A DNA stretch of 23,375 nucleotides from positions 1-23,375 of the IMG/VR virus record IMGVR_UViG_3300025132_006407; one strand, given 5' to 3'. The position numbers were made by a program, and so were the translations under genes. Shown here piece by piece: positions 5,350 through 20,855 of the stretch. The notes under the pieces were generated by a model that was not told the DNA's origin, ran no database searches, and saw only the letters and a list, made by a program, of their open reading frames with translations. This DNA is from a virus. Position 1 is the first letter of the stretch. Every line of letters begins with the position of its first letter.

Positions 5350-6104
5350 TCGTTCAGTTTACTTTTCGTTGGTGGTGCTGTTCCTAGTTTCTGCTTCACA
5401 ATTCTATCTGTTACGTTACCGGGTTCTCTTAGGAACCAACCTGTAGCAATATACTTTGGTGTGTCACCTGTCAAGAATGACCCACGATGCATATGAGTAT
5501 ATGCTGCTGGCCAATACACTGCTGTTCCCTGTGTTGGATGGAATGAACACTTCTGATGTAAGAAATCAGTCGATCCACCATTCTCTAACGGTATATCATT
5601 TAGGTAAATCATCCATGTCAATACTCTGTCTCTGTATATAAATGAACCATCTTCACAGTGCCATATGTGATATCCTCCACCTGCTTCTGTTTTCTGTAGT
5701 TTTACAGTCCATGATGCGATAGGATCAGAACTGTCTATGATACCTTTATATTCATTTGCATAATGTTCAAACCCTTCTCCTACAACCATTGTTGTTCTTG
5801 CTGCAAGACCTGAGTCTGCAACTTCCAAATATAATTGTTCATCAGATCTACCCATCTTACCATTACTGAATTGATTCACACCCACATCAGTAGTTGCCAA
5901 ATCAAAAGTATCACCTATGACTTTCTTCCTTACAAACTTTTGTTGATTGTAAAATTCAAAAGCATCTATAAGAGTCTTACAATACTGAGGTGACATAAAG
6001 TTTTCAATGACTCCTATACCATCATTGAATTTCATCTCATGAGGACCATCAGATAATAGTTGTATATTAGGATCCTGTGCTAGAGGTTGCTGCTGCTCGG
6101 TCAT
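5346..6104 (-). CDS. 2-oxoglutarate/Fe(II) oxygenase, prolyl-4-hydroxylase-like
   Basis: A 252-residue protein with a C-terminal double-stranded beta-helix oxygenase domain. The iron site is visible as YHIWHCEDGS (145-154, His149 with Glu151 or Asp152) and a distal histidine in THMHRGSF (203-210). TPKYIATGWF (215-224) follows, where the 2-oxoglutarate-binding basic residue is expected. LTWMIYLNDIPLENGGSTDF (162-181) is typical of phage P4H-like enzymes. The family hydroxylates proteins or small molecules. The frame opens with a TTG at 6110; I use the ATG at 6104, and an ATG at 6035 is also possible. It overlaps the GT25 gene by 38 bases. In this setting it may hydroxylate a sugar, a lipid or a host protein. 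Confidence 0.85.
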   Translation of the reverse strand: MTEQQQPLAQDPNIQLLSDGPHEMKFNDGIGVIENFMSPQYCKTLIDAFEFYNQQKFVRKKVIGDTFDLATTDVGVNQFSNGKMGRSDEQLYLEVADSGLAARTTMVVGEGFEHYANEYKGIIDSSDPIASWTVKLQKTEAGGGYHIWHCEDGSFIYRDRVLTWMIYLNDIPLENGGSTDFLHQKCSFHPTQGTAVYWPAAYTHMHRGSFLTGDTPKYIATGWFLREPGNVTDRIVKQKLGTAPPTKSKLNE

Positions 6105-6900
6105 TTTCAAATTGTTGTTGGTAAACGGATGGTGGAATACGTCCTACGTATTCATCTAGTTCCATGAGTTGATCAAGTAATATATCTTGACCACTTGATT
6201 GCCAGAACTGGTCGAGTCCTTGCTTGCTATCCTTATGAAAAATATCTAAATGTTCTTCATGAATAGCAGACCCCATATCAAGTCTGTAGTTCAATATTGG
6301 GAGGGCATAACCCTTACCACTATCTAGTATCAGGTCTTCTGACACTGCTCGTGGTCTGATGTTTTGATCTATCTTCCACAAGTTACCACGTTGATGACAT
6401 TTTAGCACCTTTGTGGCATGATGTCTAGTGATAAGATAACATGCAGCAGAGAAATCATTGATAAATCTATGATGCAGTTTCAAATGAATACCATTTGGAT
6501 TTATAATAGTAAATTGACAGGTATCAAAATTGATAGGTAATTTTTTCCTGACATCTCTCCATGTAAATGTCCAATGTTTTGCAGGAGAAAGATCTACATC
6601 GTCTTCCATGATGACAATCTCATCATCGTCAGTTTCTTCTACAAAATGTTTCAGTGCAGTAAGGTGTGTAAGAACACAACCTATCTCACCGGGGTTCATG
6701 TTATCTGGAACCCTGCCCTTCAAGTATGAAGATGGATCGTCTTCCTTACCATCAATACCTGATATCCTAGTATGATTTTCTACACCCCAATAATCAAGGT
6801 GCTCTACCATATATTTTTGTCTATCAGTATACCTATCTAAGTTCAACCAATAGACTGGTGGGAGTCCACTTAGTTTGTATTTACTTTTGTTCTTGTCCAC
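6067..6900 (-). CDS. GT25-family glycosyltransferase
   Basis: A 277-residue GT25 (lipooligosaccharide type) glycosyltransferase. It shows VYWLNLDRYTDRQ (16-28), RISGIDGK (45-52), GEIGCVLTHLTALK (71-84) and the acidic metal motif IMEDDVDLSP (97-106). These are the four hallmarks of this family in the expected order. GT25 enzymes are typically beta-galactosyl- or glucosyltransferases acting on lipopolysaccharide core or on hydroxylysine. The neighbouring oxygenase makes the second kind of substrate conceivable, but I cannot tell. The start is a GTG with GAGG about 5 bases upstream, 20 bases inside the upstream glycosyltransferase gene. Confidence 0.88.
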   Translation of the reverse strand: MDKNKSKYKLSGLPPVYWLNLDRYTDRQKYMVEHLDYWGVENHTRISGIDGKEDDPSSYLKGRVPDNMNPGEIGCVLTHLTALKHFVEETDDDEIVIMEDDVDLSPAKHWTFTWRDVRKKLPINFDTCQFTIINPNGIHLKLHHRFINDFSAACYLITRHHATKVLKCHQRGNLWKIDQNIRPRAVSEDLILDSGKGYALPILNYRLDMGSAIHEEHLDIFHKDSKQGLDQFWQSSGQDILLDQLMELDEYVGRIPPSVYQQQFENDRAAATSSTGS

Positions 6901-7837
6901 GTCGCCTCTTCATGTAATCAACTTCTGCATAATATTTTTCCAGAGACTTCTTACCATAGAACTTTAGTTTCTCCCACACCTTACGATTATCTTCTATGTA
7001 AGGGTTTGTGAACCAAGAGTTCTTACTTCTCTTATGTTCTAAATGATATATTACATCGTTCAATCTAAGAACATGAGAGCAAGAATTGAATCTATGATAT
7101 CTTTCATCATCTTCATATCCATATGATATAAACTCTTCGTTCTCCATACCAAGTCTCTTATATTCCTCTGTGTCAAAGAACTGACAGAAACCAAACTTAG
7201 CATCGTATGCATTCATGCTACCATCAAAGGCATGAAAGTTGAAGTTTGAATTTATAAACTTACTTACAATTTCATCATTGGCACGAACCTGCCATTGGAA
7301 CATACCATAACCATATGGATAAACACACTTGACAGGTTCTGGTTTTGTACCTTCGGGTGCATTATCTGGAAGGTATCCGTTTATGATATAGTGACATGCA
7401 AGAGCATGGTTATATGCAGGTATAATAATATCGGCATCAAAATTTACTACAATTTCTGTGTCTGCCATCATGATCATATCATTGATCAATCTAGTTCTAT
7501 GAAATGTAAATTCATCAGACTGCTCAAACACATGTGTAAGTTTTGACAACTCCTCTTCACTACACACAGGTTTTATTTGTGGTAAAACACTTTGCTCAAA
7601 TATAGATTCTTTATCAAACTCTTTAATAATTACTTTAGCATCTATGTTCTTGAGAAGATAAAGTAAAGATGTGATTATATTTCTCATCCTATCATCACTT
7701 TCGATTCTCAAAGGAATCAAATAAGTGGCACATGGAAGATTGATCTTAGTAAAGTCTTCGTTGATAGGAATATCACCATGAATGGGTGCTTCTGGTGCAG
7801 GATGTTTGATTTCATTAGTGTTGATTTTTGGTTTCAT
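6881..7837 (-). CDS. GT2/GT7-like galactosyltransferase-type enzyme
   Basis: A 318-residue GT-A fold glycosyltransferase. Features are ATYLIPLRI (37-45), HRTRLINDMIMMADTEIVV (113-131), the metal-binding VNFDADIIIP (131-140), a GT7 C-terminal-like motif YGYEDDERYHRF (239-250) and HLEHKRSKNSW (266-276). The combination of DxD with a later G-x-E-D-D motif is typical of chondroitin-polymerase or galactosyltransferase-type enzymes. The donor may be UDP-galactose or UDP-N-acetylhexosamine, by family only. The N-terminal 30 residues are proline-rich and probably flexible. The ATG overlaps the GT11 stop (ATGA). Confidence 0.78.
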   Translation of the reverse strand: MKPKINTNEIKHPAPEAPIHGDIPINEDFTKINLPCATYLIPLRIESDDRMRNIITSLLYLLKNIDAKVIIKEFDKESIFEQSVLPQIKPVCSEEELSKLTHVFEQSDEFTFHRTRLINDMIMMADTEIVVNFDADIIIPAYNHALACHYIINGYLPDNAPEGTKPEPVKCVYPYGYGMFQWQVRANDEIVSKFINSNFNFHAFDGSMNAYDAKFGFCQFFDTEEYKRLGMENEEFISYGYEDDERYHRFNSCSHVLRLNDVIYHLEHKRSKNSWFTNPYIEDNRKVWEKLKFYGKKSLEKYYAEVDYMKRRRGQEQK

Positions 7838-8619
7838 AATACCTCCCAGTTATCACAGTATAGGTCAGATGTATTGTGGTTTTTAGTATAACCAGTACCA
7901 AACCACTTCTTAGGTGCAATGATTCTCTTATCAGGGTTACGTGATAAGTAAGATCCCCACCAAGAGAATGATGAATTTGCAATGATAAAGTCAGAACACA
8001 AAGTCATCATACACAAGTCTGCAAGATTGTCACCACCTTCTGAGACAAGGAACCTGTCATCAGGGAACTCAGTGCTACACCATTGAGGATCATCAGAAAA
8101 AACAACCACTGTACGATCGTTATCAAACTTTGACAATGCAGCGTCATAATATTCTTTGGGGCAGGGTGGATGGTTATCACAGTTCTGTATATAGTCACCT
8201 CTACGAACATGTAATGCAATAGGATCTTTCAATGTATCCATCATCTCTTTACATGGTAAATGTATATCATTCTTGAACTCAAAATCTTGTCTTATATCTT
8301 CTTCTATATGCTCAAAATATTTCGTGCTTTGGAGATATGCATAAACGTTATGTCCATCAGGCATATTATCAAATAAGTTTTGATCAAAATGAAAATGTGC
8401 TTCCTGCACATATGGTCCGGGAATATGATTTATATTTGTAAGACCGGTGAGTTTGAATGCCTCAAATAATTGATGATCATTCCACTCATCATTGAAGTCA
8501 CTAGGAGGGATAGCAAAGTCATAATCTTTATGTGCTGCGATGCCTCGTAGTCCTGCATACTGGAACATCTGGTTACCCAGTCTGCCATGTCTGCCTAGAT
8601 GGTTGAATCCTATAGTCAT
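7834..8619 (-). CDS. GT11 alpha-1,2-fucosyltransferase-like
   Basis: A 261-residue GT11 enzyme with all main motifs: GRLGNQMFQYAGLRGIA (12-28), the donor-binding HVRRGDYIQN (137-146), VVVFSDDPQWC (171-181) and ANSSFSWWGSYLS (214-226). The length is a little below the family norm of 280-300. By family it transfers L-fucose from GDP-L-fucose, usually onto galactose. No GDP-fucose synthesis genes are in the window, but a GDP-mannose 3,5-epimerase-like gene is. GDP-L-galactose, which differs from GDP-L-fucose only by the 6-hydroxyl, may therefore be its donor (inference). ATGA-type overlap with the upstream GT2 gene. Confidence 0.92.
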   Translation of the reverse strand: MTIGFNHLGRHGRLGNQMFQYAGLRGIAAHKDYDFAIPPSDFNDEWNDHQLFEAFKLTGLTNINHIPGPYVQEAHFHFDQNLFDNMPDGHNVYAYLQSTKYFEHIEEDIRQDFEFKNDIHLPCKEMMDTLKDPIALHVRRGDYIQNCDNHPPCPKEYYDAALSKFDNDRTVVVFSDDPQWCSTEFPDDRFLVSEGGDNLADLCMMTLCSDFIIANSSFSWWGSYLSRNPDKRIIAPKKWFGTGYTKNHNTSDLYCDNWEVL

Positions 8620-9302
8620 GATGAGTGTTTCTGTTTCAAATATTCAATCTCCTTTGGTAGGAGGTGTTCATAAGTTCTCTGTGTTTGAGACTTATGTTCT
8701 CTGTTTGAGATGTGATAATCCTTTAGTATCACTGGGTCTCCGTGATATTTATACAGTCTAAAATACATATCACAGTCCATCAACATGGTCAATTCTTCAT
8801 CAAAGAACATGTCGATTCCTCGCTTTATTGCAAGGATGGATGGTGAACTCAAAGTGTTGACACCTTCCAATAACTTATCATTATAATATGGAATCTTTGG
8901 ATTGTAATGGGTCTGACCATCATCAACTGTGTGAGCATATCCTGTGACTGCCCACTTGACATCATCAGTGAATGCCTTGTCCAGTTCTGCTACAAGATTA
9001 CATGTCAAAATAAAATCATCAGAGAATAATACCTTTAGGATATCCCCATTCCCATGCTGTAATGCATGGTTAGTATTAGCAGAAATGTTGCCATACTTAT
9101 TTGTATTCTTAATGTAGTTGATCTCGAACAGATCTGCATACTCTTGGCATGCTTGTAGAACCTTATTAGATTTGCTATGATCTGATATCCAGACGTTGAA
9201 ATCTTTGTTGGTTTGTTGTGAGAGAGCATGAAAAATATCAAACAAATAATTTTGACATCTTGCATTACCATCATGAGTTGGAATACAAAAACTAACTCTC
9301 AT
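8616..9302 (-). CDS. GT2-family glycosyltransferase
   Basis: A compact 228-residue family-2 glycosyltransferase. It begins MRVSFCIPTHDGNARCQNYL, has WISDHSKSN (38-46), YGNISANTNHALQHGNGD (70-87), the metal motif LFSDDFIL (92-99) and an LMDCDMYFRLY segment near the acceptor region. It lacks membrane segments, so it would act on the cytoplasmic side. Donor specificity cannot be read from the sequence. The upstream GT10 gene ends 11 bases inside this gene, and the stop overlaps the next ATG, so translation is coupled on both sides. Confidence 0.85.
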   Translation of the reverse strand: MRVSFCIPTHDGNARCQNYLFDIFHALSQQTNKDFNVWISDHSKSNKVLQACQEYADLFEINYIKNTNKYGNISANTNHALQHGNGDILKVLFSDDFILTCNLVAELDKAFTDDVKWAVTGYAHTVDDGQTHYNPKIPYYNDKLLEGVNTLSSPSILAIKRGIDMFFDEELTMLMDCDMYFRLYKYHGDPVILKDYHISNREHKSQTQRTYEHLLPKEIEYLKQKHSS

Positions 9303-10104
9303 ATACTATAGCGTTTTCCTCAACATCAGCGATAATGGTTTTTGTCAATCGAGGAACTACATCATTCTCACCATAAAATTGCTTGGCAATCTCATAGTTC
9401 TTTTCAATAACTTCCTTTTTACTATGGTAGAAGTCTTCAGTTAGTTTGTCAAATATTTTCTTGAGTTCGCTGACATCACTAAATTTAATCACACCATCCA
9501 TGTCAAACCACTTGCCAAGATTAGGACAACCCCAGTATATTGGTATAGTTCTACTGGCAAAACAGTCTATGATCTTCTCTGTAAAATAATTATTTTGTCT
9601 TGAGTTCTCTACTGTGATATGATACAATGCATTCTCGAAAAAATCATTCCTTCTTTGATGAAATGGTGGTGACTTATGTGCATACACTTCCATACCATTT
9701 ACATCATCTATATCATCTAGCATATCCATAATAAGATTTCTAGTTTTGTGTCCAGTGGTCTGCAACTTAGAACTGGTAACGAATGTAATGTGTGGTTTCT
9801 TATCTATCTTGAGATCTTTGAAGTCTAACCATGAAGAACCCCACTCAAATAATTCTGCCTGTGGGTATTTCTCTAGTATTGATTTTGTAAATGTATAAAT
9901 TCGATTGAAGTTATGTGCATTTCTAAGGGCACCTTCATTCACAGATGGTGCTACTGCATATGGTTCTGCTAAAAATAATATTCTATAGTCTGCTTTCTTA
10001 TCAAATGTCAGATTGTCTATTGATATACTTACTCTTCTGTTACCTACATCCAATCCTTCTTCACCCCATGGATTCCACCACAGTTGGTTGATAGTTGCTT
10101 TCAT
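9292..10104 (-). CDS. GT10 alpha-1,3/4-fucosyltransferase-like
   Basis: A 270-residue protein with the GT10 catalytic signature in its C-terminal half: HITVENSRQNNYFTEKIIDC at 162-181 followed by IPIYWGCPN (187-195). These residues hold the GDP-sugar. The N-terminal half is a divergent acceptor domain. Family members transfer L-fucose onto N-acetylglucosamine or glucose. As with the GT11 enzyme, the donor here may be GDP-L-galactose, because no fucose pathway is seen; this is inference. The length is shorter than bacterial Lewis-type enzymes, which carry extra C-terminal repeats. The ATG overlaps the stop of the DUF5672 gene. Confidence 0.9.
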   Translation of the reverse strand: MKATINQLWWNPWGEEGLDVGNRRVSISIDNLTFDKKADYRILFLAEPYAVAPSVNEGALRNAHNFNRIYTFTKSILEKYPQAELFEWGSSWLDFKDLKIDKKPHITFVTSSKLQTTGHKTRNLIMDMLDDIDDVNGMEVYAHKSPPFHQRRNDFFENALYHITVENSRQNNYFTEKIIDCFASRTIPIYWGCPNLGKWFDMDGVIKFSDVSELKKIFDKLTEDFYHSKKEVIEKNYEIAKQFYGENDVVPRLTKTIIADVEENAIVYES

Positions 10105-10769
10105 CGTATCTCTTGAAAATGATAATGGAAACCAAAGGTCTCTTGTTCACTGTCAGGTAGAGTTTCTTCCCTAGAGAATTTACTCGCCACCGCGACGGGA
10201 GCATACACACATCCCTGTCCCTCAAAGATGTGTCGATTGTGGCAGCATATGTTCCCGTCCTCATTATATAGTCCGGCGTTCATATGTTTATAGAAATCTC
10301 CTTCGTTTACTTCCCAAGGGACGGTGACTTTACTGGGGACGTCGAGTAGACGCTTGGAGCGTAGGGAAAATCCTCCATTCCCGACTCGATGATTCTTTCC
10401 CCACGGGTCGAGGTAGGCATTTGGGTCATCCCTCCACGGTGCACCGATATAGTCGTAATCAAGAAATTTATTATCCCAAAGGTGAGGACGAATAACGTAG
10501 CCGTCCGGATGTATGAGAAGGCAGTGCGAGGTCCTGACGTGATTAGTAAGATTATAGATACAATAAAAATTAAAGTCATTGATTGATTGAATTGGATATA
10601 CTTCCTCATAGTCCACATTGGGATTCAAACCTTTCGGTCTTCCTTTACTACTAAGAAACTTAGCAGCACCCCATTGAATACCTTCACATGATTTGTTTAC
10701 TGCATACACAGCATCTTCGATGTCAAGGTCAGCGAGCATGACCAATGTAACTTCAGGAATTTTTTGCAT
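10101..10769 (-). CDS. DUF5672-family glycosyltransferase-like protein
   Basis: A 222-residue protein with the DUF5672 pattern: YEEVYPIQS (54-62), IHPDGYVIRPHLW (86-98), FLDYDYIGAPW (102-112) and VGNGGFSLRSKRLLD (129-143). The GNGGFSLRS motif is shared with several GT-A transferases and probably lies in the acceptor site; the family is regarded as glycosyltransferase-like with no defined product. The middle and 3' part of the gene (10,141-10,440) is about 50 percent G+C by hand count, while flanking genes are near 35 percent. That suggests a patch from another source. The ATG lies 17 bases inside the upstream gene. Confidence 0.8.
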   Translation of the reverse strand: MQKIPEVTLVMLADLDIEDAVYAVNKSCEGIQWGAAKFLSSKGRPKGLNPNVDYEEVYPIQSINDFNFYCIYNLTNHVRTSHCLLIHPDGYVIRPHLWDNKFLDYDYIGAPWRDDPNAYLDPWGKNHRVGNGGFSLRSKRLLDVPSKVTVPWEVNEGDFYKHMNAGLYNEDGNICCHNRHIFEGQGCVYAPVAVASKFSREETLPDSEQETFGFHYHFQEIR

Positions 10770-11679
10770 TCTTTACAGCACGGTTGAATACAGTATAAAG
10801 ATCAAGTAAGTTGTTGTCAATATTCTGTGCTTGTTCAAAGAGATGATTGTTATCAGACAGTAATGCTTTGGTACAGTCCATAAAATCATTTACCCATAAA
10901 ATAGGATAGTCTTTGTATAACTCTTGGAGATACTCTGACTTCTTCATTACGGGAACTCTTCCTAAGTATAACACTTCCCAGTTCCTATGGCAATCTACAC
11001 CATTTCCCTGTGGACATATCATAAACTTATGATCTAATATCTGCTGACAGTATAGATCGTAATGAACTCTTTCACCAATGGTGACATATTTTTTACCTGA
11101 GAACTTCTTTCTTACATTACCCCTCTCACTTATATTTGTATGCTCTGAGTGGTTTATGTATAATAATTTCTTAGGTTTCTGATCTCTCTTCAGAAGATAC
11201 TTCTTCATTATCCCTATACGATTATCACTTGGATGCAAGATCCTTTGAAGTCCATATGGGAATGGGTGTACCTTACCTCCGAAACCGATAGCATTTGTTC
11301 CATAAATTGCAACAACATTATCAGGTATCTTGGTATGGATATCCTCTGTGATAGGTGTGTCTTCTAAGTTAGTGAATATACAAAATTTCGTATCAGGATA
11401 GATCTTACAAGTTTCAAGGAGGTCATTAGTCTCCATCAAACCATCTATCCATTTCTGATCGCTCTCGGTGCTCGCCTTGAGTGGTCTATTATAAAGTCGT
11501 ATATTATCTATAAAAACTGTCAGGAACGGTTTACCGCCCTTCACTAGGTCACCGAACTCTGTATTGCATGGATCTGCCTGCTTCATGTAAGCACCTGCAA
11601 CGTTTCCTATACAACCAGACTGATCACCAAACGAGTAATCACAGTGATTAGATACTGCTACTCCTTCTATCAGATTCAT
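10753..11679 (-). CDS. exostosin/RXYLT1-like glycosyltransferase
   Basis: A 308-residue protein with a GT-B-like C-terminal half. The key motif is MICPQGNGVDCHRNWEVLYL (220-239) followed by GRVPVMKKS. This P-x-G-N-G-x-D-x-H-R-x-W-E pattern is typical of exostosin/RXYLT1-type transferases and of related proteins in large viruses and bacteria. Upstream, FPYGLQRI (140-147) and KKLLYINHSEHTN (170-182) fit the same fold. Substrates are not readable. There is no signal peptide or membrane helix, so it should be cytoplasmic. Its ATG overlaps the GT17 stop (ATGA). Confidence 0.7.
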   Translation of the reverse strand: MNLIEGVAVSNHCDYSFGDQSGCIGNVAGAYMKQADPCNTEFGDLVKGGKPFLTVFIDNIRLYNRPLKASTESDQKWIDGLMETNDLLETCKIYPDTKFCIFTNLEDTPITEDIHTKIPDNVVAIYGTNAIGFGGKVHPFPYGLQRILHPSDNRIGIMKKYLLKRDQKPKKLLYINHSEHTNISERGNVRKKFSGKKYVTIGERVHYDLYCQQILDHKFMICPQGNGVDCHRNWEVLYLGRVPVMKKSEYLQELYKDYPILWVNDFMDCTKALLSDNNHLFEQAQNIDNNLLDLYTVFNRAVKNAKNS

Positions 11680-12515
11680 TTGATGAACCTCGCTAGTTCT
11701 TCCTTATTCCTCTGAATATAGTTCGGGTATGAACTATCGATAGGTACCACAGTTGGTTTATACAAATAATCTCTGCCAAATGGGTCAACTCCTGCCTCGA
11801 TACGTTGTTCCATTGTATCTCTGAACTGAGATAAATTGTTCTCTTGGTGTTCATATGCATCCATCTTGGCACGTACAGTGTCAGCATCACCAAAGAAACT
11901 CCAATGCCATGATGCATTGTCAATCTTCCAAGAGTCTTGATGTGATTGCCTCAACTTATCTATACTCATTGTCTTGAGTGTCTTCATTGTGCACACTCTA
12001 GTTCCCATCCATTCCTTTTCACATAATAGATTCAGATAGTAATAGTATACAGGACCTTTCAATACATAATGATTCTCAGGTTTGAACCACTCATCTATAG
12101 CGAGCAGTGCATCTGGATTCGCTATCTCATCAGCGTCACTTGTTAGTATAAGATCATCATCCTTTGCCCTATCAAGTAATGCATATATTGCAGAGTCTTT
12201 ATGGAAGCATGCCCTTTGATAGTGTAATGGTAGTTGATATATGTTCTCCTCTTTCATGCTCCTGTGATAAGGAACACCTTCCCAATACTTTTCTAATGTT
12301 TCATTATCATCTATTGTGACATGATGAATGATTTTATCTTCCCACTTCTTGAAACGTTCTTTATTCTCTTGGTAGTATAATGGTTTAGGTTTACCAGTAA
12401 AAGTAATGTTTGCTTCATTGATTACAAAATAATCAACAACATCACCTAATATGTTGAGTCTGAGTTCTAGTAAATCAAGTTCATTATAAAAAGTGAACGT
12501 ATCAAATATGGTCAT
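11676..12515 (-). CDS. GT17-family glycosyltransferase
   Basis: A 279-residue GT17 protein (the family of beta-1,4-mannosyl-glycoprotein beta-1,4-N-acetylglucosaminyltransferase). Motifs are FDTFTFYNELDLLELRLNIL (4-23), INEANITFTGKPKPLYY (32-48), YQRACFHKDSAIYALL (99-114) and the acidic LTSDADEIANP (124-134). All are family hallmarks, and the length matches bacterial and viral members. GT17 enzymes are best known from eukaryotic glycoprotein processing; phage and bacterial members probably act on surface glycans. It overlaps the upstream oxygenase by 14 bases. Confidence 0.9.
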   Translation of the reverse strand: MTIFDTFTFYNELDLLELRLNILGDVVDYFVINEANITFTGKPKPLYYQENKERFKKWEDKIIHHVTIDDNETLEKYWEGVPYHRSMKEENIYQLPLHYQRACFHKDSAIYALLDRAKDDDLILTSDADEIANPDALLAIDEWFKPENHYVLKGPVYYYYLNLLCEKEWMGTRVCTMKTLKTMSIDKLRQSHQDSWKIDNASWHWSFFGDADTVRAKMDAYEHQENNLSQFRDTMEQRIEAGVDPFGRDYLYKPTVVPIDSSYPNYIQRNKEELARFIK

Positions 12516-13047
12516 AGTTAATGTTCAATGTCATTCTAATGTTTTTTGTCGGTGAAGAACTAGCATGATATGCATGAAGACCTTCAAAGATTACACACTT
12601 ACCTTTCTTTGGGGTTTCTCTATGTATGATCTTAGAATGATCATCTTCATCACAGAAAATAGTATCACCATCAGCATCATTGACATAATATAATGCCACG
12701 ATATGAGGGAACTGTTGATCTATATGAAAGTTATGTGGCAAACCAAAGTTGTCTGGTCGTGGCCAATGGAATGTAACGTGTGCCCTTATAATAGGGTGTG
12801 TATGCATTCTAATATACTTGCTGAAAAATGCAAGGTCATAATGTTTTACCACCTCATGCTGTGGCATACGATCTCTGATCAACGTGCATGAAAAATAAGG
12901 ATTCGTACCCTTCTGTAACTCATGTCCTATTTTATGAGCACAGTCTGGAAGATACCACCACGGTCCATTCGTTGCTGCCTTTTCAATTTTGTCTGCAATT
13001 TTCCTAGGAAATTGGACAGTATTCAAGAATAAATTTTCGTTGCTCAT
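12502..13047 (-). CDS. 2-oxoglutarate/Fe(II) dioxygenase
   Basis: A 181-residue protein unrelated in detail to the other oxygenase here. The iron triad is visible as FHID (His108, Asp110) and a distal histidine in LHAYHASS (His158 or His161), with Arg171 in NIRMTLNINY as the likely 2-oxoglutarate anchor. VALYYVNDADGDTIF (117-131) and PKKGKCVIFEG (146-156) are typical of small Phytanoyl/P4H-like domains. The substrate is unknown; a sugar or lipid is plausible from context. The frame begins with a GTG at 13,065, but I prefer the ATG at 13,047; both lie inside the 3' end of the upstream transferase gene. Confidence 0.83.
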   Translation of the reverse strand: MSNENLFLNTVQFPRKIADKIEKAATNGPWWYLPDCAHKIGHELQKGTNPYFSCTLIRDRMPQHEVVKHYDLAFFSKYIRMHTHPIIRAHVTFHWPRPDNFGLPHNFHIDQQFPHIVALYYVNDADGDTIFCDEDDHSKIIHRETPKKGKCVIFEGLHAYHASSSPTKNIRMTLNINYDHI

Positions 13048-13783
13048 CACTGTTAGTCCATTCACCTACGTTTATGTAGTTTTCAAGTGGCATCAAACTT
13101 ACTGTTACATCTGTGCCTAGAAGCATCTTATAATTTAGATGCTCACTCATACTTACATCAGTACAGTAGAAGGTGTCAATATTATTACTGCATAGAGCAG
13201 CAGCAATCCCAAAAGTTCCAACCCCAGAATTGGCAAGATGTTTTGCTGACAGTAACGTACCAAAATCTTCCGCCACACTTTTAGATTGTATTGTAACCTT
13301 TGGATTCTTTCTAAGTTCATCTAGTATAGGGTTGTGATTATCTCCTTCAGTAACTACTATCGCTTTATTAAATTCTTCAATGAGTGAAGTGTAAAAATAA
13401 AGAGGATTAGGGATATAATTACAAGGGTTAGAAATGTTTTTGTCAAAAATATCTCCACTCCTGATATGAATAACAATAGTATCATCAGATATTTCTGTTG
13501 TTGGAACGTCAAGTTGGGGACCGATCCATGTCTTACAAACCTGACGCATGTTTTCATAAATGATGTCCTCTTCGATATTGACTTCCTTATACGGACCCTC
13601 CCAGTAGAAGAACTTTGATCGTACTTCCTGACTATTCTGTCCAAACGATGTCTTGTGTTTTCTGATAATCTCATGATCGATAGATTCAAATGTTGATTGA
13701 GTTAGTGCTGCTGCCATCGTACCGACTGCACACTGTTGTATGTTATTTCCTAGTCTACCGTACCAGTGAGATATTGCAATCAT
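13004..13783 (-). CDS. fucosyltransferase-like GT-B glycosyltransferase
   Basis: A 259-residue protein with three motifs of the alpha-fucosyltransferase-like GT-B superfamily: GRLGNNIQQ (9-17), VIHIRSGDIF (104-113) and ANSGVGTFGIAAALCS (184-199). It is more distant from GT11 than the gene at 7,834 and lacks the SSFSWW motif, so it may belong to a separate family related to O-fucosyltransferases. The arginine in HIRSGD is the usual GDP-sugar contact. It is the second of three fucosyltransferase-like genes in the cluster. The ATG overlaps the FkbM stop (ATGA). Confidence 0.78.
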   Translation of the reverse strand: MIAISHWYGRLGNNIQQCAVGTMAAALTQSTFESIDHEIIRKHKTSFGQNSQEVRSKFFYWEGPYKEVNIEEDIIYENMRQVCKTWIGPQLDVPTTEISDDTIVIHIRSGDIFDKNISNPCNYIPNPLYFYTSLIEEFNKAIVVTEGDNHNPILDELRKNPKVTIQSKSVAEDFGTLLSAKHLANSGVGTFGIAAALCSNNIDTFYCTDVSMSEHLNYKMLLGTDVTVSLMPLENYINVGEWTNSDEQRKFILEYCPIS

Positions 13784-14424
13784 TTTATGAATAATGTTCT
13801 CGCTTCAGCATTATGTGATACAAATGGTCCCCATGTCATTTCATCTACAACTTCTGGATCTACCCACCAATCCTCGAATGGATTACCACCATTAGCAACA
13901 TCTCTTGCTACAATCTGGTAACCTAGATCATTCAATATTCTTCTTTGAATGTCCCTATACTCAGATCCATGAGCATACAAATCTGATTCAAATGTAATCA
14001 CAGAAAATCTATACTCATCCAATGGCAGATTCTCTAATGCCTTGAGAGTTATATTAGGTGGTTCACAATCTATAGAAACATAATCAAATCTTTTCTTTTT
14101 CCACCCTTTATTTTTTATCGCTTCTTTCCAATCAAATGTTGTGGCATCTGCAAGATGACAATCGTTTCCTCTTTGTATGACAAACTCACCTTGAAAACGT
14201 TCTTCTATTTCTACTGATATACCTTGCCAATTGAATTCAGATTCAAGTAACCATGTGTTATTGAATGCAGTAGGATGATTAGCACCTATCTCAAGATACC
14301 TTCCATTCTTTTTACCACCTAACATGGTCAAAACAAATAGATCTTGATATGCTTGAGAGTGATTCTCCTTTATGTTTACTGGATGAATAAGTTCATCCAG
14401 TTTTTCATCGTACCTTGTGTTCAT
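13780..14424 (-). CDS. FkbM-family SAM-dependent methyltransferase
   Basis: A 214-residue FkbM-type methyltransferase. SQAYQDLFVLTML (23-35) is the typical lead-in, GRYLEIGAN (41-49) is the S-adenosylmethionine-binding loop, VEIEE (71-75) is the acidic end of strand 2, and FDYVSIDCEPPNI (113-125) is motif IV. Family members O-methylate sugars or polyketides, so capping or decoration of the glycan is likely. The frame opens with a TTG at 14,445; I prefer the ATG at 14,424, which overlaps the epimerase gene by 20 bases. The C-terminus carries an EDWWVDPEVVDE segment seen in phage FkbM proteins. Confidence 0.88.
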   Translation of the reverse strand: MNTRYDEKLDELIHPVNIKENHSQAYQDLFVLTMLGGKKNGRYLEIGANHPTAFNNTWLLESEFNWQGISVEIEERFQGEFVIQRGNDCHLADATTFDWKEAIKNKGWKKKRFDYVSIDCEPPNITLKALENLPLDEYRFSVITFESDLYAHGSEYRDIQRRILNDLGYQIVARDVANGGNPFEDWWVDPEVVDEMTWGPFVSHNAEARTLFIK

Positions 14425-15325
14425 CAATCCAATCACTAAGTTCAATAGATGGCATGTAATTCAAAAGTTTTTTTGCTTTTGAGATATCAGCAAGAGTTTC
14501 TCTTGCCTCTGCCGGTCTAGGTGGTATAAATTTATAATCAGTGGAGATCATATTCGCCACTTGATTTACAGAATGATTAGTTCCTGTGCCAACATTTATA
14601 ATCTCACCACTTATATCACTTGCTCTTTCTGCTGCTGCTATATTTGCTCTGACTACATCTCTTACATGAGTGAAGTCTCTACGTTGTTCTCCATCACCTA
14701 CGATAGTAAGTGGTTCACCACGTTTCCATTGCTCTAAAAATAATCCCACAACAGGTGCATATTGTCCTACGAGTGGTTGCCTTTCACCATATACATTGAA
14801 GTATCTTAGATTGACTACATTCAAATCAAATAGATCTGAATACATCTTACACATATTCTCTGCTGCCACCTTTGATACTGAGTATGGATTCAAACAATCA
14901 GGTGTCATGTCCTCTCTAAGAGGTGGTTCATTTTTCAAACCATAGGATGATGATGTGGATGAGTTTACGAATGCCTTGACACCATGCTCACGGGCATACT
15001 GTAATAACATTGTTGTTCCTAATACATTTGTCCTTACACATCCAACTGGATTCTTCAATGCAATCTGTATTCTAGAATAGGCAGCAAGATGAAACACATA
15101 ATCAATCTTTGGCATTCCTTCATTGACACAGTTGAAAACCTGCTCCATAATTTGTGGATCAGAAATATCTGCCTTGACATTCCATGCCTCATCATTCCAG
15201 TAGAACTCTTCATTACATATTGAGGATTCATTATCCACAACAGTAACCTGATGTCCCATCTCTAATAGTTTGTCAACAAGGTGGGATCCTATGAATCCTG
15301 CACCTCCAGTAACGAGTGATCTCAT
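14405..15325 (-). CDS. NAD-dependent sugar-nucleotide epimerase/dehydratase (SDR)
   Basis: A 306-residue extended short-chain dehydrogenase. The NAD loop is TGGAGFIGSH (6-15), and the catalytic set is SSTSSSYG (122-129), Tyr148 and Lys152 in NPYSVSKVAAE. Family signatures NVYGERQPLVGQYAPVV and RRDFTHVRDVV are present. This looks like a UDP-glucose 4-epimerase-type enzyme (UDP-Glc/GlcNAc to Gal/GalNAc or the uronic acid forms), but the exact substrate cannot be told. It lies one base after the stop of the GDP-mannose epimerase-like gene and would supply donors for the GT2/GT7 and GT25 enzymes. Confidence 0.87.
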   Translation of the reverse strand: MRSLVTGGAGFIGSHLVDKLLEMGHQVTVVDNESSICNEEFYWNDEAWNVKADISDPQIMEQVFNCVNEGMPKIDYVFHLAAYSRIQIALKNPVGCVRTNVLGTTMLLQYAREHGVKAFVNSSTSSSYGLKNEPPLREDMTPDCLNPYSVSKVAAENMCKMYSDLFDLNVVNLRYFNVYGERQPLVGQYAPVVGLFLEQWKRGEPLTIVGDGEQRRDFTHVRDVVRANIAAAERASDISGEIINVGTGTNHSVNQVANMISTDYKFIPPRPAEARETLADISKAKKLLNYMPSIELSDWIDEHKVR

Positions 15326-15326
15326 A

Positions 15327-16451
15327 CTAACCTGATGCTAATAAATCGTATTCTTTGTTTTCAAGAGTAGCAGATGATATACTTTCCTTACATATCTGCT
15401 GACTGATCCAATTATAGGTCTTTCTGATTCCTTCTTCAAGTGTTTGTGTGTAATCCCAACCAAGTTCTTTTCTGATAAGATCATTGTTTGAGTTACGTCC
15501 ACGAACACCAAGAGGACCATCAATATGATCTCTACCTATGGACTTGCCTGCTACTTTTGCTGCTATTCTTACTAACTCATTAATAGTAACCATTTCTTCT
15601 GAACCTATATTCACAGGTCCTTTGAAGTCTGATTGCATCAATCTCCATGTTGCCTCAATGCATTCATCAATGAATAGGAATGATCGAGTTTGTTCGCCAT
15701 CTCCCCATACTTCGATAGTATCGGCGAGACCTGCATTTGCAACCTTCCTACAAATTGCTGCGGGTGCCTTTTCGCGTCCACCTTTCCAAGTTCCTTCAGG
15801 ACCGAAAATGTTGTGGTAACGAGCAACACAAACAGGCATGCCATAGTTACGACTGTACGTAAGATATAGTCTTTCTGAAAATAATTTTTCCCATCCATAT
15901 TCTGAATCCGGTGCTGCAGGGTATGCTGATTCTTCACGACAATCTGGATTGTCAGGATCTAATTGATTGTACTCAGGGTACATACATGCTGAACTAGAAT
16001 AGAAGATCTTAGTGATCCAATCTAGGCATGGTCTGTTACATTCACTCCATCCTTCTGACCCATCAAAGGTTTCATTCAACTTCTGCTGTGCATCTAATAA
16101 GTTTAGATTTATACTTGCAGAGTTCTGCATGATGTCAGCATCATTCTCACCTGTAAAGATAAATCCTGCACCACCCATGTCAGCAGCAAACTGATATATT
16201 TCATGAAATGGTTCGATGTATCTGTAAGGAACAGACTCATAGAAGTTTCCTTGTTCTCCTTTATACTGTATGACTCTTTCAACAAAACTTTTATCTCTCA
16301 AGTCTCCTTGAATAAACTCGTCTGCTTCTGTATCAGAAAACTCTGGATACTTGAGGTCTACACCTCTTACCCAGTAACCTTCTTTCTTGAGTCTCTTGAC
16401 CATGTGACTTCCAATGAAACCACCGGCACCTAATACTAATGCTGTTTTCAT
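15327..16451 (-). CDS. GDP-mannose 3,5-epimerase-like enzyme
   Basis: A 374-residue extended SDR that closely follows plant GDP-mannose 3,5-epimerase. Motifs are LGAGGFIGSH (7-16), FAADMGGAGFI (88-98), FYSSSACMYPE (150-160, with Cys156), EYGWEKL (184-190, Tyr185 and Lys189), FGPEGTWKGGREKAPAAICR (216-235, Lys223), WGDGEQTRSFLFIDECIE (249-266) and NIGSEEMVTINEL (281-293). The cysteine-lysine acid/base pair of the family is kept. The reaction makes GDP-L-galactose (and GDP-L-gulose) from GDP-mannose. About 20 C-terminal residues look like an extension. The ATG has AAGG five to six bases upstream and follows the only sizeable gap (54 bases) in the sugar cluster. Confidence 0.88.
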   Translation of the reverse strand: MKTALVLGAGGFIGSHMVKRLKKEGYWVRGVDLKYPEFSDTEADEFIQGDLRDKSFVERVIQYKGEQGNFYESVPYRYIEPFHEIYQFAADMGGAGFIFTGENDADIMQNSASINLNLLDAQQKLNETFDGSEGWSECNRPCLDWITKIFYSSSACMYPEYNQLDPDNPDCREESAYPAAPDSEYGWEKLFSERLYLTYSRNYGMPVCVARYHNIFGPEGTWKGGREKAPAAICRKVANAGLADTIEVWGDGEQTRSFLFIDECIEATWRLMQSDFKGPVNIGSEEMVTINELVRIAAKVAGKSIGRDHIDGPLGVRGRNSNNDLIRKELGWDYTQTLEEGIRKTYNWISQQICKESISSATLENKEYDLLASG

Positions 16452-16505: not shown

Positions 16506-17804
16506 CTAAAGTTCATTTCTGAACTTAGTAACTACTTCTTCTATGTAGTCTATCATAGGATCTGTAATTACAGGGGAACATCCTAAGAAAAATACATTAT
16601 CTAATACCTTACTAGAGTTAGGATATCTAGCGTATGAATCTATGCCACGATAGGCAGGATGCATGAGAATATTACCTGCAAAATAATTTCTAGTTTGTAT
16701 CTTATGTTCTTCTAAATATTTCACGAGTTGTACCTTGTTTCCTTCATATACTATAGGTACACCAAACCAAGAAGTTTCGGCATGTTCTTTTTCTTCAATA
16801 ACCCTCGCACCATCGATCTTAGAGAAGATCTCATGAAGTCGAGTTTTGTTGAGACGACGGATGCGATGTATCTCGTCCTGCTTAGTCAATTGTACAAGAC
16901 CGATAGACCCCTGCAGATCGGCGGGTTTGAGGTTATATCCTTGAACTCCGAAGACATACTTATGATCGACATCATGGTCGTACCCTTCCAACCAACGATC
17001 AAATCTCTGCCCACAGACACCGTTGGACAATTTGTTTTGGGATCCTACACAATAGCATCCACGACCCCACCAAGCAAACGATCTGGCGATCTGGATTATC
17101 TCCTCGATATTAGAGGAAACCATACCCCCTTCGATAGTAGAGATATGATGAGCTGGATAGAAAGAACAAGAAGCAGCGACGGAGTGTTTGGTAAGAAACT
17201 GACCTCTCCACTTGCTACCGAGGGAGTCACAGTTGTCCGCGATATATTCGAGTCCGTAAACATCCAAAATTTCGAGAAACTTATCGAAGTCGTAGGGATT
17301 TCCCAGAACAGGAGAAGAAAAACACGCTCTAGTTCTACTGGTGATCTTGGACTCTAACATCTCAAGATCCCAATTCAAATCTGTATAATCAATATCTACA
17401 AATACAGGTTTCAAATTATTCTGTATGATAGGGTTGATTGTGGTAGGGAATCCACAAGCACATACTAATATCTCATCTCCATCTGCCCATCCAAAATATT
17501 TTTTGAGTGCAGCAACCATCACAAGATTAGCAGATGAACCACTGTTGACCATGAGGTTATATCTAAAGTCAAACCTTTTACCAAACTGTGATTCAAATTT
17601 GTTGACTTCCTCTCCTGCAGGCAACCAATTACCTTTCAGTAAAGTTGTTATTGCAGCAGTTGGTTCTTGCTCATCCCAGTATGGACCAGAGTAATATATG
17701 TTACCACCGGGTTTCCAATCCTTGTTGGCAAGATATGGAAATAGATTCTCTCCATCACCTTGTAGTTCTGATATAAAATTTGATACCTTATCTTTTACTG
17801 ACAT
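16506..17804 (-). CDS. rfbH: RfbH/E1-type CDP-4-keto-6-deoxyglucose-3-dehydrase-like enzyme
   Basis: A 432-residue DegT/DnrJ-fold enzyme. Instead of the PLP lysine it has histidine in SFYPAHHISTIEGG (214-227, His220), the mark of ColD and of the E1/RfbH 3-dehydrases. The iron-sulphur cysteines of E1 are also present: Cys192 (DNCDSLG), Cys250, Cys252 (GRGCYC) and Cys264. The first spacing is exactly 57 residues and the next is one residue, as in E1, while the last is 11 where I recall 7. The family removes the 3-hydroxyl from a 4-keto-6-deoxyhexose, on the way to 3,6-dideoxy sugars, with an E3 reductase that is not in this window. The central third (16,800-17,340) is richer in G+C. Confidence 0.88.
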   Translation of the reverse strand: MSVKDKVSNFISELQGDGENLFPYLANKDWKPGGNIYYSGPYWDEQEPTAAITTLLKGNWLPAGEEVNKFESQFGKRFDFRYNLMVNSGSSANLVMVAALKKYFGWADGDEILVCACGFPTTINPIIQNNLKPVFVDIDYTDLNWDLEMLESKITSRTRACFSSPVLGNPYDFDKFLEILDVYGLEYIADNCDSLGSKWRGQFLTKHSVAASCSFYPAHHISTIEGGMVSSNIEEIIQIARSFAWWGRGCYCVGSQNKLSNGVCGQRFDRWLEGYDHDVDHKYVFGVQGYNLKPADLQGSIGLVQLTKQDEIHRIRRLNKTRLHEIFSKIDGARVIEEKEHAETSWFGVPIVYEGNKVQLVKYLEEHKIQTRNYFAGNILMHPAYRGIDSYARYPNSSKVLDNVFFLGCSPVITDPMIDYIEEVVTKFRNEL

Positions 17805-18613
17805 AATTCCCTCACTATATCTTTTGTATCAAACAAGGGACTGAATCCCAACTGATCTAACTTGCTTGTGTTCAAATAAAATTTCTGCAATCCTTGTACC
17901 ACTTTGTGAAACTTTGGTGTATCTATACTAATAAGATTTCCTCTATAATGACACTCTCTCTTTGCTATGTCAAGCATCTCTTTTACAGATGTTTCTTTTC
18001 CTGATCCTATATTGTAAATCTCATCTACATTTCCCTCATCCATAACCAATTTGATGGCACGACACACATCAGTCACATGCATGATGTCTCGTGTGTGACT
18101 ACCATTATCATACATCTTGACATCTCTATGTTCAATCATTTCATTTATCATCCATGTAATTGCATTCTTTTGTTTAGTTGCATTAGTATCTCCATACCCC
18201 ATGACATTACATAGTCTCAAAATTCTATATCTCATACCATAAGTTTGTGCAAATGATTTGATAAGATCTTCTGCACATTTTTTTGTAATAGAATAAAATC
18301 CATTCGGGTTCAGAGGATCATTTTCACTAGCAGGAATATTATCACCTGCACCATATACAAACCATGATGATACAAAGTTGAAAGTAATATCTTCATCTCT
18401 ACAATGTTCTAAGACTTCGCATAGAACCTTCAAGTTTGTATCCACATCAAGTGTAATCTTATCATGCACATGATAATTATGAGTTGTCGATATCATGTAT
18501 AAGATATCTTCTGATTTGGGTTTACGTTCTTCCCTAGGAATCACATGCACATCATTATCATAAAGACGTTTGAATTCCCTTCCAACGAAACCACATCCAT
18601 ATAATGAAATCAT
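17795..18613 (-). CDS. NAD-dependent epimerase/reductase (SDR), possibly dideoxysugar synthase
   Basis: A 272-residue SDR with a short, reduced nucleotide loop (GCGFVG, 6-11), SSWFVYG (82-88), catalytic Tyr107 and Lys111 in FYSITKKCAED, LRLCNVMGYGD and RDIMHVTDV. It is smaller than epimerases of the RmlB type. Its place between RmlB and the E1-like dehydrase suggests that it reduces or epimerises their 4-keto product, as RfbJ-type abequose or paratose synthases do; that is inference from order, and RmlD-like reduction is an alternative. It overlaps the dehydrase gene by 10 bases, and its ATG overlaps the RmlB stop. Confidence 0.8.
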   Translation of the reverse strand: MISLYGCGFVGREFKRLYDNDVHVIPREERKPKSEDILYMISTTHNYHVHDKITLDVDTNLKVLCEVLEHCRDEDITFNFVSSWFVYGAGDNIPASENDPLNPNGFYSITKKCAEDLIKSFAQTYGMRYRILRLCNVMGYGDTNATKQKNAITWMINEMIEHRDVKMYDNGSHTRDIMHVTDVCRAIKLVMDEGNVDEIYNIGSGKETSVKEMLDIAKRECHYRGNLISIDTPKFHKVVQGLQKFYLNTSKLDQLGFSPLFDTKDIVRELCQ

Positions 18614-19542
18614 CTATTCAAATACCATTCAATAGTATGTTGTAAACCTGTGTCAAAATTCATGATCGGTTTCCACCCAGTTTTGTTATACAACTTAGTA
18701 TAACTCATGGCATATCTTTTATCAACCCCCGGTCTTGCATCTGAAACACCTATTAGATCATGTGATTTACCTAGTATGGTAAGTATTTTTTTGACCACAG
18801 TTTCTACATCAAGTTCACAACCACCACCTATGTTATAGGTGTCATTCATAATACCTTGTTCTTCTAGCAACCAGATAGCACGACAATGATCCTCAACGTA
18901 CAACCAGTCACGAATCAATCTTCCTTTACTATGCATGTAAGTTTTCTTACCTCTCATAGAGTTTATAATAGTGAGAGGTATGAGTTTTTCTAGATGTTGA
19001 TGTGGTCCGTAGTTATTTGAACAGTTTGTTATAAGATAAGGAAGTCCATATGTATTATGCCATGCCTTCACAAAATAATCTGATGCTGCCTTACTAGCAG
19101 AGTATGGATTTCGTGGGTCATATGGTGTGGTCTCTGTAAATATTTCTTCGTCATCATACTCTAGAGAACCATACACCTCATCAGTAGAAACATGATGAAA
19201 CTTCTCTACCCCCACTTCTAATGCAGCATTCATCAAATTGATAGTTCCTATCACATTTGATTCTAGAAATGGTTTGTAATTCTTGATTGAATTATCTACA
19301 TGACTCTCAGCAGCAAAATGAAATACTTTGTTTGGTTTATATGTCTTGAATATATGATTGACATGTTTCTCATTTGCAATGTCACACCATACAAATGTTG
19401 TCTTGGTATCTCTCTTGATAAATTTTATGTCAGAAGCATATGATAAAGAATCTATGACAACAATCTCATCATCATAAACTCTCTGAACATAATTTACAAA
19501 GTTACTTCCTATAAAACCGGCACCACCAGTAATCAGAATCAT
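18610..19542 (-). CDS. rmlB: dTDP-glucose 4,6-dehydratase (RmlB-like)
   Basis: A 310-residue RmlB-type dehydratase. It has TGGAGFIGSNFVNYV (5-19), FHFAAESHVDNSI (74-86), the catalytic STDEVYG (119-125, with the Thr/Asp/Glu acid-base set), Tyr147 and Lys151 in NPYSASKAASD, NNYGPHQHLEKLIP (176-189), RDWLYVEDHCRAI (211-223) and DARPGVDKRYAM (268-279). All are close to the family norm. It converts an NDP-glucose (dTDP by family) to NDP-4-keto-6-deoxyglucose, the entry point for deoxysugars. No RmlA nucleotidyltransferase is in the window, so the activated sugar must come from the host or from elsewhere in the genome. TAATG overlap with the upstream cupin. Confidence 0.93.
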   Translation of the reverse strand: MILITGGAGFIGSNFVNYVQRVYDDEIVVIDSLSYASDIKFIKRDTKTTFVWCDIANEKHVNHIFKTYKPNKVFHFAAESHVDNSIKNYKPFLESNVIGTINLMNAALEVGVEKFHHVSTDEVYGSLEYDDEEIFTETTPYDPRNPYSASKAASDYFVKAWHNTYGLPYLITNCSNNYGPHQHLEKLIPLTIINSMRGKKTYMHSKGRLIRDWLYVEDHCRAIWLLEEQGIMNDTYNIGGGCELDVETVVKKILTILGKSHDLIGVSDARPGVDKRYAMSYTKLYNKTGWKPIMNFDTGLQHTIEWYLNR

Positions 19543-19928
19543 TATTCAGTCCCGTATTCGTTCATGCACATATATGTATTTTCTTTCTTGATACGACCAT
19601 AGTCATCTTCAAGTCTAATAATATCATTCTCTTTACATATACCGATCTGCGTTTCGATAATCAACAATCCTTTCTCACCACCCTTTGCTCGATGCTTCAT
19701 CTCTGTGCCAATATGAAAAGTGTCACCCACTTTACATACAGTTTCCATTCTATTCTGAGTTATAATACCACTTCCCTCCACAATCACCCAGTCCTCTGTC
19801 CTCAGATTATGATACTGAAGTGACAGTCTCTGATCAGGTGCTATGTAAAGTCTCTTCACTTTATAGTTATCGTCCTCGACGATGGTTTCATACCACCCCC
19901 AAGGACGCTCTCTTCTTACGAACATCAT
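19542..19928 (-). CDS. mannose-6-phosphate isomerase-like cupin (ManC C-terminal type)
   Basis: A 128-residue single cupin domain equal to the C-terminal isomerase part of bifunctional ManC. The matches are RPWGWYETI (8-16), KVKRLYIAPDQRLSLQYHNL (23-42), EDWVIVEGSG (45-54), HRAKGGEKGLLIIETQIG (79-96) and EDDYGR (107-112). The metal ligands of the cupin (Gln38, His40, His79) are visible. By family it interconverts fructose-6-phosphate and mannose-6-phosphate, feeding GDP-mannose. The guanylyltransferase half is missing, so the host enzyme would be needed. Two consecutive ATGs exist; the first overlaps the talC stop. Confidence 0.87.
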   Translation of the reverse strand: MMFVRRERPWGWYETIVEDDNYKVKRLYIAPDQRLSLQYHNLRTEDWVIVEGSGIITQNRMETVCKVGDTFHIGTEMKHRAKGGEKGLLIIETQIGICKENDIIRLEDDYGRIKKENTYMCMNEYGTE

Positions 19929-20596
19929 TTTGATTGTACTTGTGCCCAGTCTTGATCGAATAGTTCAAGACCTTTATCAGTGAGTATATGATTATACATC
20001 TTCTCAAAAATACTAGGTGGCATTGTGCATATGTTTGCTCCGTTTAGAAAAGAGTCTGTCACATGCTGCACACTTCGTATTGATGCAGAAAGGACCTGTG
20101 TCTGAGATCCATGCATACGATATATACTTGCTATCTGATTTATAAGAGCAATACCATTGACTGATTGGTCATCTAATCTACCTACAAATGGAGAAACATA
20201 AGTTGCTCCTGCCTTTGATGCTAGAACTGCTTGTGCTGCTGAGAAAACAAGAGTAACATTTACTTTGATCCCATCAAGAGCAAGTGATCTACATGTCCTT
20301 AGACCATCTGGTGATAGTGGTACTTTGATAGTGGTAGGATTGATACTAAGTCTTTTACTTTGGAATGCATACTTACTATGCAATCTCCTACCTTCTGCAG
20401 TCATAGTCTCCTCGTCACCAACAACTTCCATGCTGATGTCACGGACACCATAGTCTGCTAGTTCTTGGTATACGTCCTCTGGGTCTCTCCCACTCTTTCG
20501 GATAAGAGTAGGGTTTGTAGTAACACCGTCAATAAGACCAGTCCCATAATACTTCTTGATTAGATCTGTCTCTGCTGTATCTAGGAAAATCTTCAT
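19925..20596 (-). CDS. talC: transaldolase TalC (cyanophage type)
   Basis: A 223-residue short transaldolase/fructose-6-phosphate aldolase-type protein. It shows MKIFLDTAETDLIK, DGVTTNPTLIRK (23-34), INPTTIKVPLSPDG with the Schiff-base Lys91, IKVNVTLVFSAAQAVLA (110-126) and YVSPFVGRLDD (133-143). This small type is the known cyanophage auxiliary metabolic gene that steers carbon into the pentose phosphate pathway, giving NADPH and ribose for phage DNA. It is the second gene after a strong early promoter and is coupled by TGA/ATG overlaps to genes on both sides, so it is expressed with the sugar cluster. Confidence 0.95.
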   Translation of the reverse strand: MKIFLDTAETDLIKKYYGTGLIDGVTTNPTLIRKSGRDPEDVYQELADYGVRDISMEVVGDEETMTAEGRRLHSKYAFQSKRLSINPTTIKVPLSPDGLRTCRSLALDGIKVNVTLVFSAAQAVLASKAGATYVSPFVGRLDDQSVNGIALINQIASIYRMHGSQTQVLSASIRSVQHVTDSFLNGANICTMPPSIFEKMYNHILTDKGLELFDQDWAQVQSK

Positions 20597-20826: not shown

Positions 20827-20855
20827 ATTATAAGACACACGTTTCGAGATGTCAA
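20827..20855 (-). promoter_or_regulatory. consensus sigma70 early promoter
   Basis: On the minus strand a perfect -35 TTGACA (20,855-20,850) is followed after exactly 17 bases by a perfect -10 TATAAT (20,832-20,827). Transcription should start near 20,820 and read the small protein, talC and the sugar cluster. A perfect match on both boxes with ideal spacing points to the host housekeeping polymerase, as for cyanophage early genes. Confidence 0.88.

Follow-up and report, generated by a model that had tools for sequence, protein, structure and literature searches.

The window analysed here, a virus record of 23,375 bases, has a cyanophage-type content, with a TalC transaldolase gene and, on the minus strand, a long series of genes for nucleotide-sugar enzymes and glycosyltransferases (table 1), and its best nucleotide matches are marine single-cell virus contigs, Prochlorococcus phages, and Synechococcus phages. 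The three open reading frames on which the original prediction was built, namely an E1-like dehydrase, an SDR, and RmlB, are all present at the positions given for them, all on the minus strand, and successive genes from TalC through the cupin, RmlB, and the SDR to the E1-like gene overlap by 1 to 10 bases, the spacing between TalC and the cupin differing between phages. Downstream, the gene order of the remaining glycan cluster is maintained in related phages. At its far end, three similar-looking genes follow one another on the minus strand (3117–5349), with more copies of their relatives in a 192-kb phage (L194), and the minus-strand gene at 1827–3101 encodes a protein of 424 aa (phrog_25854) that matches no Pfam family and is amidinotransferase-like by eye, relatives of which stand two in tandem in the same 192-kb phage.

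Table 1. Features of the sugar cassette and its surroundings in the window.
Feature	Position	Strand	Basis
E1-like PMP/[2Fe-2S] nucleotide-sugar 3-dehydrase, 432 aa (predicted)	16506..17804	-	PF01041, 3bcx match, fold, His219 and Cys192/250/252/264
Extended SDR, 272 aa, Rossmann half shortened; probably a 4-ketoreductase (or an epimerase)	17795..18613	-	PF01370, triad, fold model
RmlB, dTDP-glucose 4,6-dehydratase, 310 aa	18610..19542	-	TIGR01181; Thr120-Asp121-Glu122, Tyr147-x3-Lys151
Cupin (mannose-6-phosphate isomerase C-terminal type), with which the cassette opens	19542..19928	-	PF01050 1.4e-21
TalC transaldolase; overlaps the cupin here and in a few other lineages	19925..20596	-	phrog_440 3e-90
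Perfect sigma-70 type promoter TTGACA-17-TATAAT, operon head	20827..20855	-	Sequence motif
GDP-mannose-3,5-epimerase (GME)-like SDR, 3' of E1 (name read from sequence)	15327..16451	-	PF01370, phrog_540
Remaining surface-glycan cluster: another SDR, GT10/GT11/GT17 glycosyltransferases, 2OG oxygenases, unknowns	3117..15325	-	Pfam and PHROGs matches

In a sequence search, the nearest solved structure to the E1-like protein is the E1 dehydrase 3bcx (E = 1.5e-70), and a match to PF01041 at 220.7 bits places the protein in the DegT/DnrJ/EryC1 fold. Its AlphaFold2 model (mean pLDDT 89.7) likewise finds 3bcx as top structural match with both Foldseek and VIA-align (Z 50.8, rmsd 2.5, 403 residues aligned), at 31–33% sequence identity to E1 (AscC/DdhC/RfbH), the CDP-4-keto-6-deoxyglucose (CDP-6-deoxy-4-hexulose) 3-dehydrase that works with the reductase E3. 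The four cysteines Cys192, Cys250, Cys252, and Cys264, spaced by 57, 1, and 11 residues, align with Cys193, 251, 253, and 261 of E1, where the last gap is 7, exactly the spacing and the deviation that had been predicted. A histidine in place of the PLP lysine had been predicted too; the replacement stood, although its residue number did not, since it is His219 that aligns with His220 of E1, the neighboring His220 of the phage protein being likewise invariant. As His219 and the four cluster cysteines are conserved in all 85 aligned proteins, and given the E value to E1, a chance match can be ruled out, and the protein is, judging from its residues and its predicted fold, a member of the broad E1/SpnQ-type family of iron–sulfur 3-dehydrases. 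Structural modeling delivered the fold but not the cluster, whose geometry is not confirmable from the model because the loop 253–263, which houses the extra residues of the 11 gap, has a pLDDT below 50. ColD itself, a GDP-4-keto-6-deoxymannose 3-dehydratase, shares the fold and the catalytic histidine but has no iron–sulfur cluster, three of the four cluster cysteines being missing from it in the alignment; a ColD-type enzyme acting on a GDP sugar is ruled out by the conservation of these four residues. A second metal site made of Cys115, Cys117, and Cys213 was considered and dropped, residues 117 and 213 also being part of the consensus of the alignment that includes bacterial homologs.

Among viral contigs, 146 of 148 pattern matches encode E1-like relatives, of which 80 (75–97% identical) were retained, and a scan of bacterial genomes yielded relatives mostly 35–41% identical, with three at 49–63%. 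A last gap of 11 is shared by the phage proteins and five bacterial lineages (Nitrosomonadaceae, Nitrospirales, Prochlorococcus AG-363-O16, and two picocyanobacteria), whereas it is 7 in the 69 other rows compared; in the tree, the spacing-11 rows form a single clade on a long stem, with a support of 1.0. Against the RfbH model of NCBIfam (NF011936, curated cut-off 423 bits), the window protein scores 345.6 bits and its clade relatives 363–367 (346–367 for the clade overall), when seven proteins of the other branch, which are true RfbH, reach 666–752 bits, about twice as much. By these scores, the E1-like protein falls outside RfbH as curated, though within the broad family.

The 4,6-dehydratase and the SDR that the original prediction had noticed beside the dehydrase turn out to belong to one conserved cassette found in many marine phages, in which a cupin, RmlB, a reductase-like SDR, and the E1-like gene follow one another as an overlapping operon. 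Of 72 testable loci, 69 have the SDR immediately 5' of E1; RmlB lies 5' of the SDR in 60/64, the GME-like gene comes next after E1 in 60/64, and the cupin is found 5' of RmlB in related phages. In bacteria, the SDR–E1 pair recurs without an adjoining RmlB in three lineages (Prochlorococcus, Nitrosomonadaceae, and Nitrospirales), and the E1-like gene of two picocyanobacteria has no SDR beside it. The E1-like gene is under purifying selection, with a dN/dS of about 0.06 to 0.13 against four relatives. At the head of the operon, a perfect promoter site (spacer of 16–18) is found at most 1.6 kb upstream of the cupin in 18 of 60 related cassettes, at several spacings, and such sites total 26 in 914 kb of viral loci, these loci being related rather than independent. 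In the related phages, perfect sites concentrate directly upstream of the cassette.

RmlB scores 387.5 bits against TIGR01181 (cut-off 365.1) compared with 88 bits against the CDP-glucose model, and its Thr-Asp-Glu is retained in 72/72 proteins. With regard to the SDR, the triad Ser83-Tyr107-Lys111 is conserved (Ser or Thr at 83) and Trp-Phe occupy the positions of the dehydratase Asp-Glu of RmlB, so the protein, lacking the residues for dehydration, should from its sequence be a reductase or an epimerase. Its model is confident (pLDDT 91.5) despite the shortened Rossmann half, and the best folds, which differ by no more than about one Z unit, are those of UDP-glucose 4-epimerases and of a GDP-4-keto-6-deoxymannose reductase, so that an assignment by fold was abandoned, reductases and epimerases being tied. 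This mixture of folds speaks for a rival reading, in which the SDR would be an epimerase, or an enzyme of another pathway, with host reductases completing the sugar. The Synechococcus phage RB11-B is consistent with the same reading: there, an RmlC gene is inserted between RmlB and the SDR, which follows RmlC and is not beside E1. However, the SDR adjoins E1 in nearly all viral loci and in the three bacterial lineages mentioned above, and we regard the rival reading as rather unlikely, a reductase acting together with E1 being the preferred reading. The RmlC of RB11-B would suggest, for its part, an L-sugar in that phage and a D-sugar in the phage of the window.

The SDR also stands out by its evolution. 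A comparison with twelve close relatives shows 92–97% identity to the window, where covered, for both RmlB and E1, when the SDR falls into a class near that of the window (82–86% identical; L005, L008, and L015) and a distant class (61–63%; L007, L010–L014, and L016), the two allele classes being 61–64% identical, the drop in DNA identity starting and stopping near the ends of the SDR gene. The dS of the SDR against the distant class is 1.6 to 2.2, compared with 0.2 to 0.4 for E1 and RmlB of the same genomes. In the SDR tree, each class is a clade with full support, whereas the classes are intermingled in the E1 tree, and a single clade for the second (B) SDR class is rejected by the E1 data (p-AU 0.012). 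The simplest reading is that the SDR was exchanged singly, by recombination between near-identical phages. We also considered, and did not retain, clean and separate origins for the two classes, the SDR data not rejecting one clade for both (AU p 0.37). The cupin is variable among close relatives as well (53–98%), as are some other genes of the cluster. The exchange of the SDR, which is reminiscent of the swapping of abequose and paratose synthase genes among Salmonella serogroups, may alter which sugar is produced.

As for the nucleotide carried by the substrate of the E1-like enzyme, RmlB scores over its cut-off in 4 of 5 phage records checked, RmlA was not found in the phage records tested, and no RfbF was found in 15 phage records. 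The genome Prochlorococcus G015, which has the SDR–E1 pair, encodes RmlA (482 bits) and RmlB (445 bits), and its best RfbF (49 bits) and RfbG (97 bits) matches are far under the cut-offs, an absence to be read as soft in this draft, as in the other bacterial genomes, which are drafts too. By comparison, RfbF is over cut-off in 25 of 32 genomes with this enzyme family. Because the phages have RmlB without RfbF, and this Prochlorococcus has RmlA and RmlB without RfbF and RfbG, dTDP appears more likely than CDP. The competing view is that of the classical CDP pathway, in which a divergent RfbH would act on CDP-4-keto-6-deoxyglucose made by RfbF and RfbG of the host, when RmlB would serve another sugar. 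E1 and RfbH are indeed the best-characterized relatives of the phage protein, GenBank names a homolog in the phage S-H68 a CDP-4-dehydro-6-deoxy-D-glucose 3-dehydratase, and the host of the phage could provide both genes. The Nitrosomonadaceae genome with a relative of the phage enzyme likewise has RfbF and RfbG; having both the dTDP and the CDP gene sets, it does not discriminate, but its RfbG and RfbF adjoin a second, different E1 homolog (33% identical), on a contig other than that of the SDR–E1 pair. The score of the phage protein below the RfbH cut-off, the position of RmlB two genes upstream of E1 in 60/64 loci, and the lack of RfbF in the phage records and the draft Prochlorococcus relative further argue against the CDP pathway, which we consider unlikely.

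The absence of an E3 partner, predicted from the window (itself a fragment), extends to longer records: E3 combines 2Fe-2S, FAD, and NAD domains, and the NAD-binding reductase domain PF00175 was found in 0 of 15 longer phage records. The window contains no 2Fe-2S ferredoxin domain, and a standalone 2Fe-2S ferredoxin is encoded in 5 of these 15 records, including a 192-kb contig and the 210-kb RB11-B. The remaining 10, one of them 172 kb long, have no ferredoxin match, so that a phage ferredoxin is, on gene content, not obligatory. All five cultured phages with the cassette carry a ferredoxin, as do 279 records in all; a phage ferredoxin as dedicated donor is nevertheless not supported, such genes being widespread in cyanophages and absent from most records tested. 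Cyanobacteria, for their part, possess both ferredoxin or flavodoxin and the matching reductase. A precedent for such a supply is SpnQ, the dTDP-4-keto-2,6-dideoxyglucose 3-dehydrase of spinosyn biosynthesis, an iron–sulfur enzyme for which, on its dTDP sugar, ferredoxin or flavodoxin with a matching reductase suffices in place of E3 (PMC8987622). SpnQ differs in belonging to an actinobacterial antibiotic pathway and in its substrate, which has no C2 hydroxyl. By gene content and by this analogy, the phage pathway is likely dTDP-linked and ferredoxin-driven, and nearer to the logic of SpnQ than to that of E1/E3, as its cassette combines RmlB and an SDR with neither E3 nor RfbF in the records tested.

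The precedent of SpnQ cuts both ways, since this enzyme transaminates when a reductase is absent (PMC8987622), and the phage protein could in the same manner, with its DegT/DnrJ fold, be an aminotransferase turning the 4-keto sugar into a 4-amino-6-deoxy sugar. Aminotransferases of this fold, however, use a lysine and have no cluster (PMC8987622), when the histidine and the four cysteines are found in 85/85 proteins aligned; plain transamination is disfavored by the histidine, and we hold the aminotransferase reading to be improbable. Finally, that the glycan genes are functionless filler for headful packaging, as raised for the large and sporadic LPS clusters of cyanophages by authors who were undecided on their function (PMC3037559), is hardly credible for genes with overlapping ends, an E1 dN/dS well below 0.2, invariant catalytic residues, and an operon-head promoter retained at several spacings.

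On the basis of the observed genes, residues, gene order, co-occurrence, purifying selection, and SDR exchange, we infer a nucleotide, an electron donor, a product, and a target glycan as follows, with a probability of roughly 0.6 that the phage has the genes for most of a dTDP-3,6-dideoxyhexose pathway, with a ferredoxin-fed E1-like dehydrase and an SDR as finishing enzyme. RmlB would convert dTDP-glucose supplied by the host into dTDP-4-keto-6-deoxyglucose, which the E1-like enzyme would bind through PMP. His219 would then take the cofactor proton, the C3 hydroxyl would leave, and the [2Fe-2S] cluster of the protein would pass on two electrons, one after the other, that reduce the intermediate to a 3,6-dideoxy-4-keto sugar. 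The source of these electrons would be a soluble ferredoxin, that of the host or, in some phages, that of the phage itself, rather than a dedicated E3. By reducing C4, the neighboring SDR would determine which sugar results, and one of the glycosyltransferases of the cluster would attach this sugar to a surface glycan. A more far-reaching version, in which this pathway runs on photosynthetic ferredoxin with exchangeable reductase alleles, remodels the surface sugar of the host during infection, and switches that sugar in the manner of the O-serotype genes of enteric bacteria, is unlikely.

From a broader perspective, LPS clusters of cyanophages were on record no later than 2010, their function being left undecided (PMC3037559), and ascC/ddhC/rfbH are listed among marine viral auxiliary genes (PMC10653327). 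Homologs of these genes in marine viruses, one of them named in GenBank (S-H68), were thus already known, and in the literature on the E1-like gene in cyanophages we found only catalog mentions, with no earlier description of the clade as a separate one, of the cassette and its conservation, of dTDP as the likely nucleotide of the substrate, or of the exchange of the reductase. The T4-like cyanophages P-SSM2, S-SM2, and S-SSM7 also have large glycan clusters, and S-SM2 shares the GME-like gene, but the RmlB–SDR–E1 cassette was found in other phages, S-SM2 having only a 25% identical SDR. For clusters long known without an assigned product, the cassette would indicate one specific class of products, along with the cofactor, electron donor, and substrate involved, each of which could be tested once three small proteins are purified. 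Within the iron–sulfur sugar dehydrases, a distinct branch is defined as well, common in marine phages, and the gene likely deciding the final sugar is seen to be swapped on its own among close relatives.

Two further members of the E1 family deserve mention. A 642-kb uncultured phage (LR756502; locus L004, 8001–9230) has two E1-family genes, one of which is 55% identical to that of the window and has the spacing of 11. In a picocyanobacterium (G281; locus L190, 6337–14972), the neighborhood of a 68% identical E1-like gene includes a PDH-E1 alpha/beta-like pair and a gene resembling acetolactate synthase, which could point to a branched dideoxysugar of the yersiniose kind.
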